Below, piece after piece: positions 1,109 to 52,095 of a stretch of 64,000 nt of DNA (its first letter is position 1; each line of letters starts with the position of its first letter). The position numbers were made by a program, and so were the translations under genes. The notes below the pieces were generated by a model. That model was not told the DNA's origin. It did no database searches and saw only the letters and a program-made list of their open reading frames with translations. This stretch comes from Bolinopsis microptera (taxonomy: Eukaryota > Ctenophora > Tentaculata > Lobata > Bolinopsidae), in the NCBI RefSeq assembly GCF_026151205.1, contig NC_087083.1, forward strand, positions 3,760,460 through 3,824,459. The letters run 5' to 3'.

Positions 1109-28340
<27,232 letters not shown>

Positions 28341-40686: not shown

Positions 40687-41670
40687 TTAAGATAAATCCA
40701 ATAATGGAATCCCAAACGGGTCCACGGCATTGAGCCCCAATGGACGTATAGTTCTCAGTTTCTGAATATAACGGTGTTCATCCACTTCGAGAGTTCTTGG
40801 GCTACTATTACTGAGAATTGACACTTTATAAGCCTGGTTGAAATTGTCACGTTGTTTCATGTTATGAACTTCTACAAGGTGTTTACCCAAGCTGAATCCG
40901 TCGTCGTTTTCTTCAGGGACAAACGTATTGTCCGAAATGAGTTTGTAGTAATGGGCGCGATGTTCGTTTACTCGTGCCCTTAGGGGCTGCACCGTTCTTC
41001 CTACATAACACATATTACAAAGTTGGCAACTGAAGATGTATACAACATTGTAGCTGACACATGTACCAGACACTGCTTTGGCTCGCTGTCCGTTGACTGT
41101 TATTGATGGATGTGGAGATATGATGTTACAGGTACCGCAGTGTCTGCCCCCACATGGTCTTGTGTGAGGTTGGGTTAAGTCATCCGCAAACTGTTTTGCT
41201 TTGACTAACTTCCTTCTAAATGATGTTCCAGTACGTCTGACGAATTTGAAGATAGGGCGTGATGTACCGGCTCTAGATGATATTGGGGAGCCTGGGGTGT
41301 TTCCACTTGTATGGGAACCAGATAATCCTGAGAAGCTCCTGGTTCTACTGAGCTCTGGTTCCAATCTTTTTACCGATTCTACTAACTCTTGATCGCTACC
41401 AAATGTTGAAATAACGCGGACTGCTGGTTCTGGAGACTTTGGGACCAGGACATTGCTGTTTGAGTTGTCCAGTGGTTTGAGGCATCTTTCAAAGCCTTTG
41501 ACTTTTTCACTGATGTTATCTACCATAGTTTTAGGGTAGTTGGATTGGAAGAAAAAGGTTTTTAATTCATCAATTTTTAATTCATCAATTTGTTTTCGGA
41601 GTCTGTCGTTATCATTTAAAGGAGGGTCCAGTGCAGTGACCAGTAAGTCTGTTAAAGGATGACGTAATGC
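40687..41670 (-). pseudogene. Penelope-like element, C-terminal GIY-YIG endonuclease (5' truncated)
   Basis: Minus-strand frame from about 41670 to the stop at 40687. The linker is TFFFQSNYPKTMVDNISEKV. A CxxC-type zinc motif PCGGRHCGTCNII is followed by the GIY-YIG nuclease: VVYIFSCQLCNMCYVGRTVQ (YI...YVG signature), then PLRARVNEHR (catalytic Arg) and KHLVEVHNM, with DEHRYIQKLRTIRPLGLNAV at the end carrying the catalytic Glu region. CxxC followed by GIY-YIG is diagnostic of Penelope-like retroelements. The reverse transcriptase is missing upstream, so the copy is truncated although this part is still open. The start codon is not meaningful. Confidence 0.9.
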
Positions 41671-41924
41671 TACCTTGTACTATGTATCTAAGGCATGCTT
41701 GTATTGCGCTATGTCATATGTAATCGCTCTGTGAAAGTTTGGAATCCCTATCTACTTCCTACGCCACGCTACAGCTAAATTAAGAAAGTGATGCGTTACG
41801 TAGAACGTTCCTATCCTCAAAGGGACTGTCCTCTCAGTACTGTGTAAACACACTATTTAGCATATGTAATCGTCCAAGTAGTTCCATTTTTATACCGTTT
41901 GGTTCGGCTTCCAAATTGATTTTT
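41671..41924. other. spacer between the Penelope fragment and the poly-G element
   Basis: No ORF or repeat recognised. Confidence 0.5.
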
Positions 41925-42056
41925 GTTGGGGGGGGGGGGGGGGGGGGGAGGAACTCATGTTCATGTTTTGTGTCCGTTTTTGTCCGTTCGGTACCCTATA
42001 TTTTCAAAACGGACAAAAAGTAGGGCGGTGTCATAGACATTGGGGGTGTGAATCAG
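41925..42056. mobile_element. left end of a second poly-G/TCC element
   Basis: A poly-G run at 41929-41949 is followed by GTTTTTGTCCGTTCGGTACC CTATATTTTCAAAACGGACA, matching the subterminal segment of the element at 18636-20814 (18838-18880). No matching right end with poly-C was found before 51350, so the element is truncated or rearranged. Confidence 0.7.
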
Positions 42057-42612
42057 TGACATATGGTGAGGCTGCCGCCGCCGCCCGCAGTCCGACCCTG
42101 CTCCGCCTCTCCCCCAGGTCTCCGACGTCACGCCGCTGGGCGGCTGCTGCAGCCGCAGCCTGTGGCCGTCCTCGCACTCCAGTCCTACGCCTGATTTCCT
42201 CCATCCGTCCGCACATCGTGTACTCGCGGCCGCGGCGCCGCAGCCCCCGGCGCCGGTCGCCGATCAGGTCCGCTCCGCATGCTGGCCGCCCCCCGCCGCC
42301 TCCGGCCGCCCAAGTACGACCTCCCTCCGGGCCCTACGCGGGGCTCATCCGCCCTAGTTCTCCTCGCTCTGCTGGTCGCCGCCTCAGGGCGGCCTCCGGT
42401 GGGCGTCCGCCGCCTGAGTCGGGCTCTGCGACTGAGGCAGCTGAGCCGCTGTCCGCCGACGGTAGCCGCACCGCACTCCGGTATCCTCCGGGCGCCGAAC
42501 GCACGCGACGACGCACCGCCGGAAGCCGCATCGACGCCGCCGACGCACGTCCGACGCCGAAGACCGCCACGAATACTACCGAGCAGCAGCCCTTACCCTG
42601 TCCCGTCTTCAT
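42057..42612. other. GC-rich island of unknown origin
   Basis: About 550 bp markedly richer in G+C than all surroundings, with many CpG and imperfect CCGCCG runs. Several overlapping frames are open on both strands (Arg/Ala/Pro/Ser-rich), which is expected from base composition. I recognise no protein. It could be a CpG island/first exon, captured foreign DNA or a degraded GC satellite. Confidence 0.6.
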
Positions 42613-43010
42613 CCTCCTCCTCCTCCTCCTCCTCCTACCCCTCCTCCTCCTCCTCCTCCTCCTCCTCCTCCTCCGCCTCCTCCTCCTCCTCCTCCTCCTC
42701 CTCCTCCTCCTCCTCCTCCTCCTCCTCCTCCTCCTCCTCTTCCTCAGTCCTCCTCCTCCTCAGTTCTCCTCCTCAGTTCTCCTCCTCCTCCTCCTCCTCC
42801 TCCTCCTCAGTTCTCCTGAGTCGTCCTCCTCCTCCTCCTCCTCCATCTCATCCCCCTCCTCCTGAGTCCTCCTCCCCCTCCTGAGTCCCCCCTCCTCCTG
42901 AGTCCTCCTCTTCCTCTTCAGTCCTGTTCCTCCTCAGTCTTCCTCCTCCTCCTCTTCCTCCTCCTCCTTCTCCTTCTCAGTCCTCAGTCCTCCTCCTCTA
43001 CAGGGTGTTT
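42613..43010. repeat. TCC-repeat tract
   Basis: (TCC)n with TCCTCAGT and TCCTGAGT interruptions, ending CTCTACAGGGTG, the junction sequence that recurs at the start of every module of the downstream array. Confidence 0.95.
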
Positions 43011-43743
43011 CGAGACTCGTGTCCAAATTTAAAATTTTAATTTTTAATTTAATGAAGGAGCAAGATGTCAAGAGTAACGTTGACGAGGGTTTACGATACA
43101 CTGCCTACACAAAGTGCCTACACAACCTTCTTTCAAAAGTGCTCTTTAAGGTCCTCCTCCTCCTGAGTGATCCTCCTCCTCCTCAGCCCTCCTCCTCCTC
43201 CTCCTCCTGTGTCCTCCTCCTCCTCCTGAGTCCTCCTCCTCCTCCTCCTGAGTCCTCCTCCTCCTCCTCCTCAATTCTCCTCCTCAGTTCTCCTCCTCCT
43301 CCTCCTCCTGGGTCCTCCTCCTGGGTCCTCCTGAGTCCTCCTCCTCCTCATCAGTCCTCCTCCTCCTGAGTGCTCCTCCTCCCCCTCCTCATTCTCCGCC
43401 TCATCAATCCTCCTCCTCCTCCTCCTCCTCCTCCTCCTCCTCCTCCTCCTCCTCCTCCTCCTCCTCCTCCTCCTCCTCCTCCTCCTCCTCCTCCTCCTCC
43501 TCCTCCTCCTCCTCCTCCTCCTCCTCCTCCTCCTCCTCAGTTCTCCTCCTCCTCCTGGGTCCTCCTCCTCAGTCCTCCTCAGTCCTCCTCCTCCTCTTGA
43601 GTCCTCCTCGTCCTCTTGAGTCCTCTTCCTCCCCTCCTCTTCCTCCTCCTTCTCAGTCCTCAGTCCTCCTCCTCCTCTACAGGGTGTTTCGAGACTCGTG
43701 TACAAATTTAAAATTTTAATTTTTAATTTTATGAAGGAGCAAG

Positions 43744-43971
43744 ATGTCAAGAGAAACGTTGACGGCACCATTCGGCCCGAGGGTTTACGATACACTGCCT
43801 ACACAAAGTGCCTACACAACCTTCTTACAAATGTGCTCTTTAAGGTTTTGTGGCAAGGGGAGGAAATATGTTTTGCCATCATGTGTAGTGAAACGAATCA
43901 GAAATCTCTACACATCTCCAGCCGGAAAATACAAAGACTTCTTACCGGGAACAATTAACTCGCAGATTTAG
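43744..43971 (+). CDS. P2X7 C-terminal-domain-like ORF, full copy 1
   Basis: 75 codons starting MSRETLTAPFGPRVYDTLPT. The second half reads FCGKGRKYVLPSCVVKRIRN then LYTSPAGKYKDFLPG. The pattern RxVLPSCxVxxIRxxxPxPxGxYxGF is that of the P2RX7 cytoplasmic C-terminal-like domain, widely duplicated outside P2X receptors in invertebrates and fishes. By that comparison the ORF would be a small, probably cytoplasmic, single-domain protein or a terminal exon. The pyrimidine tract plus CTACAG upstream looks like a splice acceptor, so it may be the last exon of a longer transcript. An overlapping frame (MYKFKILIFNFMKEQDVK...) is open but shows no family resemblance. Family call from memory, not searched. 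Confidence 0.6.
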   Translation: MSRETLTAPFGPRVYDTLPTQSAYTTFLQMCSLRFCGKGRKYVLPSCVVKRIRNLYTSPAGKYKDFLPGTINSQI

Positions 43972-44888
43972 TGCGTTTTAGTGGATGTTTTATGGTTTTA
44001 AAGTCTGTTTTTGTCAAATACCGATGTAAAACTTTCTCATACAGACCAGGGGGTAACCAGGGGAAGCGATCCATAAATGGCATCCGTACGGCAAATATAA
44101 AGTGGTGTGTAGCGTTTATACACACGTTCGTAAAATTATTCTGTTACACACAATTTTAAGCTTCTTTGTTAACAAAAGTCTCGTGATGTTAAGGAGAATA
44201 TTTCAACTAATGTTAATGTTCGCTGAGACCTATTGACGGGACAAATTTTCTTATTGTCTTGCTGGTTTGTAGACCAGCCTCATTATAGAGCTAGCTCCGT
44301 GAGGCTGTTCACCGCACGTACCAACAATTTATTGCATATTTTTTACACGCTAACCTAACCAGCTGATGGGCATATTGATTATCATGACATTAACGTTATT
44401 TATAATGAATCTGGTTACTACATTAAACCCCAACTTAACGTGGAATTTGGACTGTCACAGTTCAAATTTGAATGAGCCGCCCTGTCAGGCTGTCAATACC
44501 TATCTAGGAGCTAGTCGGTTCGTAAATGTAAAAACCGCCGGATATATGACTGGTGCCGGGTTCTAATAATGATCATAGTTCCATACCTCTGTAGCTATTC
44601 CCACGATAGAAATCCTATCTTCATTCACGGCCGTGATGAATGGATTTCATTCGAAGTCGAATCAATTCGGGCTAATTGTGATAGCATTAGCTTTGAGCTA
44701 TTGTAAACCAATTGCTTCTCTTCACAATAACTATCGGACGATTTACGTACTAAAGTTCGACAACTGAAGTTCGTGGTCATGTTTCTATACTACTATACCA
44801 ATGAACGTTATAAATTCGAGATCCTGGTGGAACCTACAGGTGGACATGACAAGGATTAAGTTTGACCCATTTCCCCGAGCTAACTGTC

Positions 44889-44894
44889 AATAAA
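44889..44894 (+). terminator. AATAAA polyadenylation signal, module 1
   Basis: AATAAA in CTGTCAATAAACTCAT at the end of the shared ~0.9-kb 3' region. Identical signals stand at 46606 and 49340 in the other full-length modules. Confidence 0.55.
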
Positions 44895-45460
44895 CTCATC
44901 CCCCTCCTCCTGAGTCGGGAGTCCTCCTCCTCCTCCTGAGTCCTCCCCCTCCTCCTGAGTCCTCCTCTTCCTCTTCAGTCCTCTTCCTCCTCAGTCTTCC
45001 TCCTCCTCTTCCTCCTCCTCCTTCTCCTTATCAGTCCTCAGTCCTCTCCTCTACAGGGTGTTTCGAGACTCGTGTCCAAATTTAAAATTTTAATTTTTAA
45101 TTTAATGAAGGAGCAAGATGTCAAGAGTAACGTTGACGGCACCATTCGGCCCAAGGGTTACGATACACTGCCTACACAAAGTGCCTACACTCCTCCTCCT
45201 CCGCCTGAGTGCTCCTCCTCCTCCTCCTCAATTCTCCTCCTCCTCCTCCTGGGTCCTCCTCCTCAGTCCTCCTCAGTCCTCCTCAGTCCTCCTCAGTGCT
45301 CCTCCTCCTCCTGAGTCCTCCTCGTCCTCTTCAGTCCTCTTCCTCCCCTCCTCCTCCTCCTTCTCCTTCTCAGTCCTCAGTCCTCCTCCTCCTCTACAGG
45401 GTGTTTCGAGACTCGTGTACAAATTTAAAATTTTAATTTTTAATCTTATGAAGGAGCAAG

Positions 45461-45688
45461 ATGTCAAAAGAAACGTTGACGGCACCATTCGGCCCGAGGG
45501 TTTACGATACACTGCCTACACAAAGTGCCTACAAAACCTTCTTACAAATGTGCTCTTTAAGGTTTTGTGGAAAGGGGAGGAAATATGTTTTGCCATCATG
45601 TGTAGTGAAACGAATCAGAAATCTTTACACATCTCCAAGCGGAAAATACAAAGACTTCTTACCGGGAACAATTAACTCGCAGATTTAG
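45461..45688 (+). CDS. P2X7 C-terminal-domain-like ORF, full copy 2
   Basis: Starts MSKETLTAPFGPRVYDTLPT and carries the same YVLPSCVVKRIRNLY core with SPSGKYKDF. It differs from copy 1 by a handful of substitutions and keeps the frame. Its 3' region runs to AATAAA at 46606-46611. A truncated ORF head lies just upstream at 45118 in its own short module. Coding status as for copy 1. Confidence 0.58.
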   Translation: MSKETLTAPFGPRVYDTLPTQSAYKTFLQMCSLRFCGKGRKYVLPSCVVKRIRNLYTSPSGKYKDFLPGTINSQI

Positions 45689-48194
45689 TGCGTTTTAATG
45701 GATGTTTAATGGTTTTAAAGTCTGTTTTTGTCAAACACCGATGTAAAACTTTCTCATACAGACCAGGGGGTAACCAGGGGAAGCGATCCATAAATGGCAT
45801 CCGTACGGCAAATATAAAGTGGTGTGTAGCGTTTATACACACGTTCGTAAAGTTATTCTGTTACACACAATTTTAAGCTTCTTTGTTAACAAAAGTCTCG
45901 TGATGTTAAGGAGAATATTTCAACTAATGTTAATGTTCGCTGAGACCTATTGACGGGACAAATTTTCTGATTGTCTTGCTGGTTTGTAGACCAGCCTCAT
46001 TATAGAGCTAGCTCCGTGAGGCTGTTCACCGCACGTACCAACAATTTATTGCATATTTTTTACACGCTAACCTAACCAGCTGATGGTCAAATTGATTATC
46101 ATGACATTAACGTTATTTATAATGAATCTGGTTACTACATTAAACCCCAACTTAACGTGGAATTTGGACTGTCACAGTTCAAATTTGAATGAGCCGCCCT
46201 GTCAGGCTGTCAATACCTATCTAGGAGCTAGTCGGTTCGTAAATGTAAAAACCGCCGGATATATGACTGGTGCCGGGTTCTAATAATGATCATAGTTCCA
46301 TACCTCTGTAGCTATTCCCACGATAGAAATCCTATCTTCATTCACGGCCGTGATGAATGGATTTCATTCGAAGTCGAATCAATTCGGGCTAATTGTGATA
46401 GCATTAGCTTTGAGCTATTGTAAACCAATTGCTTCTCTTCACAATAACTATCGGACGATTTACGTACTAAAGTTCGACAACTGAAGTTCGTGGTCATGTT
46501 TCTATACTACTATACCAATGAACGTTATAAATTCGAGATCCTGGTGGAACCTACAGGTGGACATGACAAGGATTAAGTTTGACCCATTTCCCCGAGCTAA
46601 CTGTCAATAAACTCATGAGTCGGGAGTCCTCCTCCTCCTCCTGAGTCCTCCCCCTCCTCCTGAGTCCTCCTCTTCCTCTTCAGTCCTCTTCCTCCTCAGT
46701 CTTCCTCCTCCTCTTCCTCCTCCTCCTTCTCCTTATCAGTCCTCAGTCCTCCTCCTCTACAGGGTGTTTCGAGACTCGTGTCCAAATTTAAAATTTTAAT
46801 TTTTAATTTAATGAAGGAGCAAGATGTCAAGAGTAACGTTGACGACACCATTCGGCCCAAGGGTTACGATACACTGCCTACACAAAGTGCCTACACTCCT
46901 CCTCCTCCGCCTGAGTGCTCCTCCTCCTCCTCCTCAATTCTCCTCCTCCTCCTCCTGGGTCCTCCTCCTCAGTCCTCCTCAGTCCTCCTCAGTCCTCCTC
47001 AGTGCTCCTCCTCCTCCTGAGTCCTCCTCCTCCTCTTCAGTCCTCTTCCTCCCCTCCTCCTCCTCCTTCTCCTTCTCAGTCCTCAGTCCTCCTCCTCCTC
47101 TACAGGGTGTTTCGAGACTCGTGTACAAATTTAAAATTTTAATTTTTAATCTTATGAAGGAGCGAGATGTCAAAAGAAACGTTGACGGCACCATTCGGCC
47201 CGAGGGTTTACGATACACTGCCTACACAAAGTCCTCCTCCTCCTCCTCCTCCTCAATTCTCCTCCTCAGTTCTCCTCCTCCTCCTCCTGGGTCCTCCTCC
47301 TCAGTCCTCCTGAGTCCTCCTCCTCCTCATCAGTCCTCCTCCTCCTGAGTGCTCCTCCTCCTCCTCCTCATTCTCCTCCTCATCAGTCCTCCTCCTCCTC
47401 CTCCTCCACCTCCTCCTCCTCCTCCTCCTCCTCCTCCTCCTCCTCCTCCTCAGTTCTCCTCCTCCTCCTGGGTCCTCCTCCTCAGTCCTCCTCAGTCCTC
47501 CTCAGTCCTCCTCAGTCCTCCTCGTCCTCCTCCTCCTCCTCAGTCCTCCTCGTCCTCTTCAGTCCTCTTCCTCCCCTCCTCCTCCTCCTTCTCCTTCTCA
47601 GTCCTCAGTCCTCCTCCTCCTCTACAGGGTGTTTCGAGACTCGTGTAAAAATTTAAAATTTAAATTTTTAATCTTATGAAGGAGCAAGATGTCAAAAGAA
47701 ACGTTGACGGCACCATTCGGCCCAAGGGTTTACGATACACTGCCTACACAAAGTGCCTACACTCCTCCTCCTCCGCCTGAGTCCTCCTCCTCCTCCTCCT
47801 CAATTCTCCTCCTCAGTTCTCCTCCTCCTCCTCCTGGGTCCTCCTCCTCAGTCCTCCTGAGTCCTCCTCCTCCTCATCAGTCCTCCTCATTCTCCTCCTC
47901 ATCAGTCCTCCTCCTCCTCCTCCTCCTCCTCCTCCTCCTCCTCCTCCTCCTCTTCCTCCTCCTCCTCCTCAGTCCTCCTCCTCCTCAGTTCTCCTCCTCC
48001 TCCTGGGTCCTCCTCCTCAGTCCTCCTCAGTCCTCCTCCTCCTCCTGAGTCCTCCTCGTCCTCTTCAGTCCTCTTCCTCCCATCCTCCTCCTCCTTCTCC
48101 TTCTCAGTCCTCAGTCCTCCTCCTCCTCTACAGGGTGTTTCGAGACTCGTGTACAAATTTAAAATTTTAATTTTTAATCTTATGAAGGAGCAAG

Positions 48195-48422
48195 ATGTCA
48201 AGAGAAACGTTGACGGCACCATTCGGCCCGAGGGTTTACGATACACTGCCTACACAAATTGCCTACACAACCTTCTTACAAATGTGCTCTTTAAGGTTTT
48301 GTGGAAAGGGGAGGAAATATGTTTTGCCATCATGTGTAGTGAAACGAATCAGAAATCTTTACACATCTCCAAGCGGAAAATACAAAGACTTCTTACCGGG
48401 AACAATTAACTCGCAGATTTAG
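48195..48422 (+). CDS. P2X7 C-terminal-domain-like ORF, full copy 3
   Basis: Starts MSRETLTAPFGPRVYDTLPT; core YVLPSCVVKRIRNLY followed by TSPSGKYKDF. Preceded by CTACAG at about 48128-48133 and followed by the long 3' region to AATAAA at 49340-49345. Together with copies 1, 2 and 4, frame preservation in all four full copies suggests either recent duplication or selection. Confidence 0.58.
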   Translation: MSRETLTAPFGPRVYDTLPTQIAYTTFLQMCSLRFCGKGRKYVLPSCVVKRIRNLYTSPSGKYKDFLPGTINSQI

Positions 48423-49554
48423 TGCGTTTTAATGGATGTTTAATGGTTTTAAAGTCTGTTTTTGTCAAATACCGATGTAAAACTTTCTCATACAGACCAG
48501 GGGGTAACCAGGGGAAGCGATCCATAAATGGCATCCGTACGGCAAATATAAAGTGGTGTGTAGCGTTTATACACACGTTCGTAAAGTTATTCTGTTACAC
48601 ACAATTTTAAGCTTCTTTGTTAACAAAAGTCTCGTGATGTTAAGGAGAATATTTCAACTAATGTTAATGTTCGCTGAGACCTATTGACGGGACAAATTTT
48701 CTTATTGTCTTGCTGGTTTGTAGACCAGCCTCATTATAGAGCTAGCTCCGTGAGGCTGTTCACCGCACGTACCAACAATTTATTGCATATTTTTTACACG
48801 CTAACCTAACCAGCTGATGGTCAAATTGATTATCATGACATTAACGTTATTTATAATGAATCTGGTTACTACATTAAACCCCAACTTAACGTGGAATTTG
48901 GACTGTCACAGTTCAAATTTGAATGAGCCGCCCTGTCAGGCTGTCAATACCTATCTAGGAGCTAGTCGGTTCGTAAATGTAAAAACCGCCGGATATATGA
49001 CTGGTGCCGGGTTCTAATAATGATCATAGTTCCATACCTCTGTAGCTATTCCCACGATAGAAATCCTATCTTCATTCACGGCCGTGATGAATGGATTTCA
49101 TTCGAAGTCGAATCAATTCGGGCTAATTGTGATAGCATTAGCTTTGAGCTATTGTAAACCAATTGCTTCTCTTCACAATAACTATCGGACGATTTACGTA
49201 CTAAAGTTCGACAACTGAAGTTCGTGGTCATGTTTCTATACTACTATACCAATGAACGTTATAAATTCGAGATCCTGGTGGAACCTACAGGTGGACATGA
49301 CAAGGATTAAGTTTGACCCATTTCCCCGAGCTAACTGTCAATAAACTCATCCCCCTCCTCCTGAGTCGGGAGTCCTCCTCCTCCTCCTGAGTCCTCCCCC
49401 TCCTCCTGAGTCCTCCTCTTCCTCTTCAGTCCTCTTCCTCCTCAGTCTTCCTCCTCCTCTTCCTCCTCCTCCTTCTCCTTATCAGTCCTCAGTCCTCCTC
49501 CTCTACAGGGTGTTTCGAGACTCGTGTCCAAATTTAAAATTTTAATTTTTTACA

Positions 49555-50480
49555 TCAACTGTTTTTTCTTTAAAATAGGCATTAGATGTATAGGAGTGGA
49601 AGGAATTTAGAATGGGTATAGTAGGTAAATAAGTTTTTCGTACGGTGTCAGGTGTCAGGTGTCAGGTGTCACAAAGCAAAACATGCATAACCCTCCGCAC
49701 ACGTTATTTCAATGCATATTCTCCGTGCGCGCAGAGCAGTGATGGTCTCGTCGCCATGGTTACCCTCCGCATACGTTTGCACGATTTGACGATCGATCAA
49801 ATTACACTTTCAAATGCGCGGCGCCAAGCAAACAATTTGAATTTTATGTTAATTGATTTAGATAACAAGCAATTTCCCGGATCTTATACATGTGTTAAGT
49901 AACTCAAGCTTTTCTTTACTTGATCATTGATCATGTCCATGATGCGGTACAATACATACTAACTTCCCGTTTTGTTGTGAGTGCTTGGTGTAACCACCGA
50001 CTTGGCTCCCGATAATGTCAATGATATAACTATAAGTAATCCGTTATATTGTTGAACAAACATGATTGTCGAGATATTGATTTGTTATACGAGATGGACC
50101 ATTAATGTTATTATGAGTTGCATTACCTACTACGGATTTCACGACTACCATTTTATTTAATCTAACAACTTATGTAAACTTGTAAACAACTATTCCTAAT
50201 TCACATGGCTTTTGTTCTTCAAACTTTTAACTGTGTATCACCACACAGGCGCAGGCTATGGTGTCCGGTCATTTAACTCTTTAAATTTGAATAATTGACA
50301 ATGGCAACCCTTCCATTATGTGTTGCGTAGCGCCCCAAGAATTGTGAAAAAATGACCATTATTTAGTATTTTGACCAACATGAAACTATCGTTAATTGTA
50401 ATTTAAAATTTTAAAAGGCATGGCAATCACTACGGTTGATGGAAATCTAGCGTCCGCTAACCGGCGCAATTCTTGTTAAT
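49555..50480. other. unique insert inside the module array
   Basis: About 0.9 kb unlike the modules. It has a GGTGTCA micro-repeat near 49648-49672 and no convincing gene. It replaces the ORF of the module starting at about 49506 and ends where a truncated ORF head begins at 50483. Confidence 0.6.
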
Positions 50481-51032
50481 TTAATGAAGGAGCAAGATGT
50501 CAAGAGTAACGTTGACGGCACCATTCGGCCCGAGGGTTTACGATACACTGCCTACACAAAGTGCCTACACTCCTCCTCCTCCGCCTGAGTCCTCCTCCTC
50601 CTCCTCCTCAATTCTCCTCCTCAGTTCTCCTCCTCCTCCTCATGGGTCCTCCTCCTCAGTCCTCCTGAGTCCTCCTCCTCCTGAGTCCTCCTCCTCCTGA
50701 GTGCTCCTCCTCCTCCTCCTCCTCCTCCTCCTCCTCCTCCTCCTCCTCCTCCTCCTCCTCCTCCTCCTCCTCCTCCTCCTCCTCCTCCTCCTCCTCCTCC
50801 TCCTCCTCCTCCTCCTCCTCCTCCTCCTCCTCCTCCTCCTCCTCCTCCTCCTCAGTTCTCCTCCTCCTCCTGGGTCCTCCTCCTCAGTCCTCCTCAGTCC
50901 TCCTCAGTCCTCCTCAGTCCTCCTCCTCCTCCTTCTCCTTCTCAGTCCTCAGTCCTCCTCTTCCTCTAGAGGGTGTTTCGAGACTCGTGTACAAATTTAA
51001 AATTTTAATTTTTAATTTTATGAAGGAGCAAG

Positions 51033-51260
51033 ATGTCAAGAGAAACGTTGACGGCACCATTCGGCCCGAGGGTTTACGATACACTGCCTACACAAAGTGC
51101 CTACAAAACCTTCTTACAAATGTGCTCTTTAAGGTTTTGTGGAAAGGGGAGGAAATATGTTTTGCCATCATGTGTAGTGAAACGAATCAGAAATCTCTAC
51201 ACATCTCCAGCCGGAAAATACAAAGACTTCTTACCGGGAACAATTAACTCGCAGATTTAG
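51033..51260 (+). CDS. P2X7 C-terminal-domain-like ORF, full copy 4 (array end)
   Basis: Same ORF as copy 1 including SPAGKYKDF. The junction upstream is CTAGAG instead of CTACAG, which would destroy a splice acceptor. The shared 3' region stops after about 80 bp (51345), where unrelated sequence begins, so this module is truncated at its 3' side. Confidence 0.55.
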   Translation: MSRETLTAPFGPRVYDTLPTQSAYKTFLQMCSLRFCGKGRKYVLPSCVVKRIRNLYTSPAGKYKDFLPGTINSQI

Positions 51261-51345
51261 TGCGTTTTAATGGATGTTTAATGGTTTTAAAGTCTGTTTT
51301 TTGTCAAATACCGATGTAAAACTTTCTCATACAATTGTTCAATAA

Positions 51346-52095
51346 TAATTTAACGATCCAAACGTTACAAAAATGAAATATTGAGCCTTCTAACAAACGG
51401 AAAGACGAAGGCAAACAACACATAACCACTGTACTGAGAGGGAACAACATTCCAAACTAGGAACGTTCTGCGTGCAGCGATAAATTTAGTGCGTGTGATA
51501 TCTCCATTTATGTGGAAGCTAGAAATTCCGTTCTTTGATCATATTAGAGTATACGAGGCCTAGGTTAACGTAAGTGGCAACACAAAATCTTTGCCAAAAG
51601 TGAAAAACTCATTTACGTCATCCTTTAAGGCAACATTTAGATCTGAGATAAGCTGAGTCTTGACAAAGATAAGTGAGTTTCGAGAAAGTGCACTCGGATA
51701 AAGTTATCAAGTGACAATGATAAGACTAAGTTAGGGTCAAGTCAACAGAATGGCAGCTGTAACAGAAACAGTTCATTGGATAGGGGAGTAGGGGATTATG
51801 ACGGAGTGAAATTTATTTAGCAGGGCAAACAAAAAACAACTGACAGCACTGAGCAAGTGAACTGGAAAATTGAGGAACAAAAATAACAGTGGTTGTCAGC
51901 CCTTTCCGTAGCAATCAGGATTTCCCAGGAGATCGATCAGGCAATCAGGATTTCCCACGAGAATGCTCGAGCCAACGCGCGCACTTGTGTCACGTGACGG
52001 CCACGTGACGCTCTAATCGTTGTCACGTGGAACAGAAGGGAGGTTCCTAGAGCGTCGATCTCGACAAGAGGGAGTTTCTCACGGTTTATCTTCAA
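51346..52095. other. intergenic, no gene seen
   Basis: No supported ORF. A short direct duplication AATCAGGATTTCCCAGGAGA / AATCAGGATTTCCCACGAGA lies near 51914-51963. Confidence 0.5.

Follow-up and report, generated by a model that had tools for sequence, protein, structure and literature searches.

Results

The array and the element that encloses it

The 64,000-bp stretch of the Bolinopsis microptera genome analysed here (the window, to which positions without a chromosome refer) carries a tandem array built of TCC tracts, a short junction piece and fragments of a gene resembling the C-terminal domain of P2X7 (Table 1). A first-pass annotation had reported at least ten module starts with the same junction, and ten copies of CAGGGTGTTTCGAGACTCGTGT (22 bases) were indeed found within 43001-50990, nine of them exact and the last beginning with GAGGG..., against 0 expected from 100 shuffles. 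Four modules contain an open reading frame (ORF) of 75 codons. In the other six the ORF is cut by TCC as had been described, but only three distinct cut points are used (43152; 45191, equivalent to 46897, 47763 and 50571; and 47232), one of which is shared by four modules.

The window array is enclosed by a single TTAA-flanked element of 9977 bp, which is larger than first reported. The sequence TTAAAGGATGACGTAA lies at 41652 and its inverted copy ends at 51628. In the genome, 17 exact copies of TTAAAGGATGACGTAA were found, some as facing pairs. Since the 10 further places with one mismatch equal the count of the reversed control, such places mean little when taken alone, but C1:15039062 among them is a genuine left end, with 99.3% identity over 274 bp. 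Facing ends were found at C6:13184/15187, C6:2789356/2791086, C6:2793025/2794750 and C1:15039062/15044810. The C1 pair holds a six-module array, and the three C6 pairs span 1.7-2.0 kb. In the two C6 pairs that were read, the contents are a TCC tract, no more of the gene region than its final ~131-155 bp, and the flank.

In the excerpts consulted, Kojima and Bao (2022) give 5'-RR...YY-3' termini and a TTAA target as the rule for Kolobok transposons. The 4-bp TTAA target was present at both ends of the copies on C12 (the window copy) and C1 and of two paired short C6 copies, and the termini AGGATGAC...GTCATCCT read 5'-RR/YY-3'. The terminal motif of T2-MITE elements, TTAA + AGGRR in the excerpts consulted, was not found at the ends, where the sequence is AGGAT with T as the fifth base. 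Among the larger copies the homology breaks off at about the TTAA and the compared flanks differ: the right TTAA is the end of the C12, C1 and C3 copies, the left TTAA that of the C12, C1, C6 and C10 copies. We conclude, with a probability of about 0.87, that the array is the interior of one non-autonomous Kolobok-type (TTAA) DNA transposon, built of pieces of repeats and with related arrays elsewhere in the genome. A Helitron origin of the tandem copies had also been considered and was dropped once the TTAA ends were found.

Table 1. Features of the array-bearing element (window positions)
Feature	Position	Strand	Remarks
Whole non-autonomous Kolobok-like element	41652..51628	+	TTAA at both ends; termini AGGATGACGTAA.../...TTACGTCATCCT; encloses the array
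Kolobok left end, about 270 bp	41652..41925	+	99.3% to C1, 98.9% to C10, 98.5% to C6, 92.7% to C7
TCC-leader fragment	41976..42028	+	94% over 53 bp to the sequence entering the TCC tract at 18838-18890
TCC tracts	42612..42998 (first); about 43152-43677, 44900-45050, 45191-45394, 46617-46757, 46897-47100, 47232-47622, 47763-48128, 49351-49503, 50571-50966	+	
Mariner-type left end, module 1	43001..43057	+	CAGGG..., TA at 42999-43000
Same mariner piece, other modules	starts 43680, 45054, 45397, 46760, 47103, 47625, 48131, 49506, 50969	+	
Module 1 KolX fragment	43061..43151	+	15-bp deletion; TCC cut at 43152
Module 2 full-length KolX 3' fragment	43740..44043	+	frameshifted by 13-bp insertion
Element C, first copy	44055..44899	+	internal piece of dispersed repeat; contains AATAAA
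Module 3 KolX fragment	45114..45190	+	cut at CCTACAC/TCC
Module 4 full-length KolX 3' fragment	45457..45760	+	
Element C copy	45772..46616	+	99.5%
Module 5 KolX fragment	46820..46896	+	cut as in module 3
Module 6 KolX fragment	47165..47232	+	cut at CACAAAG/TCC
Module 7 KolX fragment	47685..47762	+	cut as in module 3
Module 8 full-length KolX 3' fragment	48191..48494	+	
Element C copy	48506..49350	+	99.6%
Insertion I	49552..50470	+	~920 bp; splits mariner piece of module 9; shared with C10, C4b and C224 copies
Module 9 KolX fragment	50493..50570	+	cut as in module 3
Module 10 KolX 3' fragment	51029..51333	+	extends into the native 3' flank of the gene
Kolobok right end, about 295 bp	51334..51628	+	98.0% to C1 and C3 copies

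The KolX fragment

The four ORFs of 75 codons start at 43744, 45461, 48195 and 51033 and all end with ...GKYKDFLPGTINSQI. The Pfam check proposed in the first-pass annotation was run, and P2RX7_C (PF20478) matched all four with 23.7-25.4 bits, barely over the cut-off of 23.5. The match spans only the profile positions 135 or 148 to 191 of 192. In these last 44-57 of the 192 positions the motifs WCxCxxC and CC of the whole domain are absent, and by eye one of its seven conserved zinc-binding cysteines is kept.

A longer KolX with an open frame of 205 amino acids was found at C7:16203954. It matched PF20478 at positions 54-191 of 192 (61 bits, 1.6e-16), and in a comparison with the PDB all four sequences at E values up to 0.01 were P2X7 (best 2.1e-5; P2X7 residues 457-591). 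Its cysteines follow, by eye, the pattern WCxCxxC...CC...C...LPSC. The Pfam and PDB matches confirm the likeness to the P2X7 C-terminal domain, and the C7 copy carries a second gene with a P2X7 ballast domain, as a Kol0 element with KolX does. The excerpts of Kojima and Bao (2022) ascribe the P2X7 ballast fold to KolX of Kol0 Kolobok and propose that this part of P2X7 derives from it. By sequence comparison, the 'P2X7 domain' of the array is the last ~70 codons of KolX.

The array copies start about two thirds into KolX, and the N-terminal two thirds are missing. In the aligned copies that bear the mariner piece 13 extra bases are present, which are absent in five copies without this piece (C7, C2, two on C4, and C2b). 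The insertion shifts the frame in 13 array copies with a readable start. The ORF had been described as keeping its frame; relative to the longer gene copies it is a frameshifted hybrid because of the 13-bp insertion, with the first ~23 residues out of the natural frame and only the later part corresponding to KolX. Exceptions are C6, where the start is lost, C5, where a further 5-base difference leaves the frame open, and C3 with a further change. Some of the five longer copies are damaged as well, with a stop in C4src2 and frame or codon changes in C2b and C4src. In a stretch of C5 (C5:11775506-11775886, reverse), where one module was read, the KolX match lies inside a 538-aa open frame.

Nonsynonymous (dN) and synonymous (dS) substitution rates of the array copies against C7 were 0.04-0.07 and 0.035-0.11, respectively, with dN/dS scattered around 0.6-1.6 on very few sites. 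A comparable stretch of 123 bases was obtained from 15 of the 21 KolX copies, too few sites for more than a suggestive result; five of the other six differ in length (C4_2, C4b_last, C5, C4src and C4src2), and the sixth, C4b_2, has no recognisable start of the stretch. The array ORF is a remnant, truncated at its 5' side and shifted in frame, in which these few sites show no clear sign of constraint.

The gene also bears on the class of the element. A piggyBac transposon would share the TTAA target, and its assignment would agree with the lack of a visible transposase. We consider it unlikely, since the termini 5'-AG...CT-3' fit the RR/YY rule of Kolobok and the pattern of seven cysteines, mostly missing from the piggyBac versions, can be made out by eye in the C7 KolX, as far as the excerpts of the source describe both.

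The mariner-type junction piece and element C

The CTACAG at the start of the modules had been taken for a splice acceptor. We found that it consists of a TA target and the first bases (CAGGG...) of a Tc1/mariner-type transposon present elsewhere in the genome. CAGGGTGTTTCGAGACTCGTGT preceded by TA forms the end of the full transposon, which at one locus (L012) is about 1.4 kb long and has the TA target, inverted ends and a transposase. The encoded protein of 365 amino acids matches DDE_3 above the cut-off and a Tc3-type helix-turn-helix below it. An assignment of the junction to a hAT end was dropped given the TA target and the DDE_3 transposase. Of 16 listed junction loci, 8 have facing ends; in three of these eight, one of the ends carries one or two mismatches. 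The junction lacks a preceding TCC tract at 13 of the 16; this listing omits the array loci L014, L015, L016 and L023, which do have TCC. The array pieces do not show the Tc1/mariner hallmarks, as only one end of ~60 bp is kept. The mariner and KolX sequences overlap at a few shared bases around GGAGCAAGATG.

Three near-identical 0.9-kb 3' regions ending in AATAAA had been reported. They are present as three blocks of 845 bp (element C), 99.5-100% identical to the first, but AATAAA is not their natural end. Element C has at least 75 genomic matches, many of them 81-88% identical across much of the query 318-1159. In all 11 genomic copies examined the repeat runs on past AATAAACT / AATAAA, and in 10 of the 11 (not in L033) it also continues on the left side. 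These copies identify element C as a fragment of another dispersed repeat and not as a 3' untranslated region.

The modules had been interpreted as ready-made terminal exons, in which the polypyrimidine tract, the CAG acceptor, the domain and the poly-A signal would serve alternative 3' ends. CTACAG does indeed follow a long pyrimidine tract in nine of the ten modules, and the P2RX7_C match is above the cut-off, but the acceptor is a transposon end that mostly occurs without TCC, and the ORF is composed of KolX parts of which some are in frame and others are not. Furthermore, AATAAA is internal to another repeat and found in only three of the ten modules, and six modules are without most of the ORF. 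The features in the first annotation are real, but their reading as terminal exons is unsupported and in our view very improbable; incidental splicing or polyadenylation may occur. The array likely has no role for the host.

The TCC tracts and the TCC-core repeat

The leader AACATTTAGATGCTTCCTCC was found in 753 genome copies at up to two mismatches, whereas the reversed control gave 0. Clustering was inspected in the first 100 places of the list, which are exact matches on C1, C2 and the start of C3: 28 of them form part of same-strand clusters of less than 2.5 kb (0.7% expected by chance), and pairs on opposite strands were not seen among them. At ~18636-20815 the window holds a TCC-core element that looks complete, its inverted ends consisting of a G-run + TGTCACGTCCGTCTATGTCCG. 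This element has an apparent TAAAAT duplication and sits within a 28-31-bp tandem repeat.

The sequence entering the TCC-core tract was also found between the Kolobok left end and TCC in four other copies (L060, L061, L063 and L048) and in the window element (Table 1). Because of this recurrence, the TCC tracts of the array likely come from the abundant TCC-core repeat. The earlier suggestion that the array belongs to an amplifying element whose TCC tracts interrupt the ORFs agrees with what we see. It is possible, though on balance doubtful, that the TCC-core repeat multiplies itself and tandemly amplifies sequence joined to it, so that inside the Kolobok ends a transposon would move and re-expand its own satellite of captured transposon pieces.

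Related copies on other chromosomes

Arrays with the same backbone were found on C1, C4, C6, C10 and C12, and a further C4 locus (C4b) carries part of such an array. The common order is left end, TCC, mariner piece, KolX with the 15-bp deletion, TCC, mariner piece, full KolX with element C, TCC, mariner piece and cut KolX, with gaps in the comparison where copies are damaged or were not read. The cut shared by four window modules was also observed in the C1, C4, C4b, C10 and C6 arrays and was therefore inherited. Since the backbone is common to several chromosomes, it formed before spreading.

Among the arrays, Kolobok ends were seen on both sides at C12 and C1; at C6 the left end was seen and the right side was not read. 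Copies on C3 and C5 have one module in the stretches read, already with the mariner piece and the 13-bp insertion. In the relative on C7, a matching left end leads to the longer KolX, behind which come a TCC tract, part of the gene end once more and finally a right end that has diverged.

TCC tracts are difficult to assemble, and the array could be an artefact of collapsed or mis-joined repeats. This is hardly credible, as the ten modules differ in single-nucleotide polymorphisms (SNPs) and cuts, and the same backbone with SNP differences occurs at several loci with different flanks.

Matches to P2RX7_C were also found in three other repeat families with TTAA-type ends: L067 with perfect ends of 24 bp, L068, and L070/L071, of which only the right end was read. 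Within 5 kb of a listed L067-family left end (40 ends listed) lie 9 of 84 P2RX7_C matches, against 0.13 expected. L067 (C6:2190439-2192674) and its relatives form a second, more numerous TTAA-ended family carrying this match. For its left end, 40 copies were scored out of 117 candidates. Because several are 98-100% identical, the family has probably been active recently.

Sequences next to the element

On the left side, a reverse-strand ORF occupies 40687-41651; this flank has 41 genome matches, itself included. The ORF contains a stretch that we take to be GIY-YIG-like, and it probably belongs to a Penelope-like element. The Kolobok element begins 35 bp beyond the truncated end of this element. 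Farther away, at 3389-7900 on the minus strand, long ORFs resemble by eye the endonuclease and reverse transcriptase of long interspersed nuclear elements.

Discussion

Formation and spread of the array

The order of events was set by shared derived features. The starting point would be the state seen in C7 and C2, a Kolobok whose longer KolX is accompanied by a TCC tract and by an incomplete second gene end. In another lineage the KolX fragment is truncated at its 5' side, carries the 13-bp insertion and adjoins, across a short stretch common to both, the first ~60 bp of the mariner-type transposon behind TCC. The one-module copies of C3 and C5, with the insertion and the mariner piece, may represent the intermediate, from which tandem TCC-mariner-KolX modules with C, and in some also I, could have arisen (C1, C4, C4b, C6, C10 and C12). 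Slippage, template switching or unequal exchange at the TCC tracts may have produced the duplications, and a Kolobok transposase acting in trans may have moved the array-bearing element. Some modules may have been copied again locally. In the most likely course of events, tandem duplication between TCC tracts multiplied a dead KolX fragment, which a Kolobok carried along as cargo.

Local growth is supported by window modules 4 and 8, which are mutually closest on KolX plus C (99.6%), and by two C4 pieces, C4_4 and C4_6, that are identical on KolX alone. Resolution is weak in the tree built from the 304-bp piece.

Several observations weigh against this account. An empty site for C12 was sought via the left flank and none was shown; this flank is the repeated Penelope-like element truncated at 41617, and the adjoining 35 bp are unmatched in other copies. 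Inspection by eye, without a domain scan, of the ORFs listed for four further element stretches revealed no Kolobok transposase. Several related copies are incomplete: the right end is cut after 130 bp in the C10 array, which has a left end, and after 136 bp in C4b, whose left side was not read. The right end is interrupted in C5, present in C3 and diverged in C7, and no left end was found in the stretches read for C3 and C5. On KolX alone, module 8 is nearer to the last module of C1 (99.3%) than to module 4 (98.7%), and for this reason the local-copy step does not look clean. The TCC-driven step is suggested by association, and at the junctions no more than a few bases are shared.

Plain segmental duplication or TCC-mediated ectopic exchange could also have spread the arrays, with no transposition. 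The abundance of TCC-leader repeats would favour this, as would the C4 array, in which no Kolobok end was found in the 9.5 kb read. Moreover, some short C6 copies (L060, L061 and L065) share flanks and are segmental duplicates and not separate insertions; the C4 copies L055/L056 likewise share flanks. We regard such a spread of the arrays as improbable, since copies end at the TTAA with different flanks.

Significance and comparison with known systems

One genome holds the likely steps from a gene fragment to a mobile tandem array, namely a partly duplicated longer gene with TCC, copies with a single module and copies with many. In this genome our result agrees with the published view of the P2X7 ballast domain as transposon-borne. 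It is also a warning that 'P2X7-like' gene models in invertebrate genomes may be parts of transposons. The clustered TCC-core copies make the seeding of satellites by transposons testable in this genome.

As far as the excerpts consulted of the following papers describe them, four systems can be compared. Kol0 Kolobok (Kojima and Bao 2022) has the same TTAA target, the RR...YY termini and KolX with the cytoplasmic ballast fold of P2X7. Here, in contrast, no transposase was found, KolX of the array is a frameshifted fragment, and an internal tandem array has formed together with a foreign mariner end, the TCC repeat and other inserts. The KolobokP multimers (Kojima and Bao 2022) are likewise tandem multimers in Kolobok-type elements, but theirs are (LTDR-INT)n with a His-Me nuclease; none was noticed here, where no search was aimed at it. 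Xmix and Xstir of the Xenopus T2-MITE (Hikosaka and Konishi 2018, PMC6004289) are non-autonomous, Kolobok-type and have an amplified internal segment, whereas our unit is a composite of pieces of several repeats and a KolX fragment, and has few copies. Tetris, a foldback transposon of Drosophila virilis (Dias 2014, PMC4079207), also contains tandem repeats, but these sit in its inverted ends and built longer satellite arrays.

In the literature searched, the composite array was not found described. The link between the P2X7 domain and transposons is already in print, and within this literature the composite array is the new part. Each ingredient is known from other systems; their nested combination is unusual.

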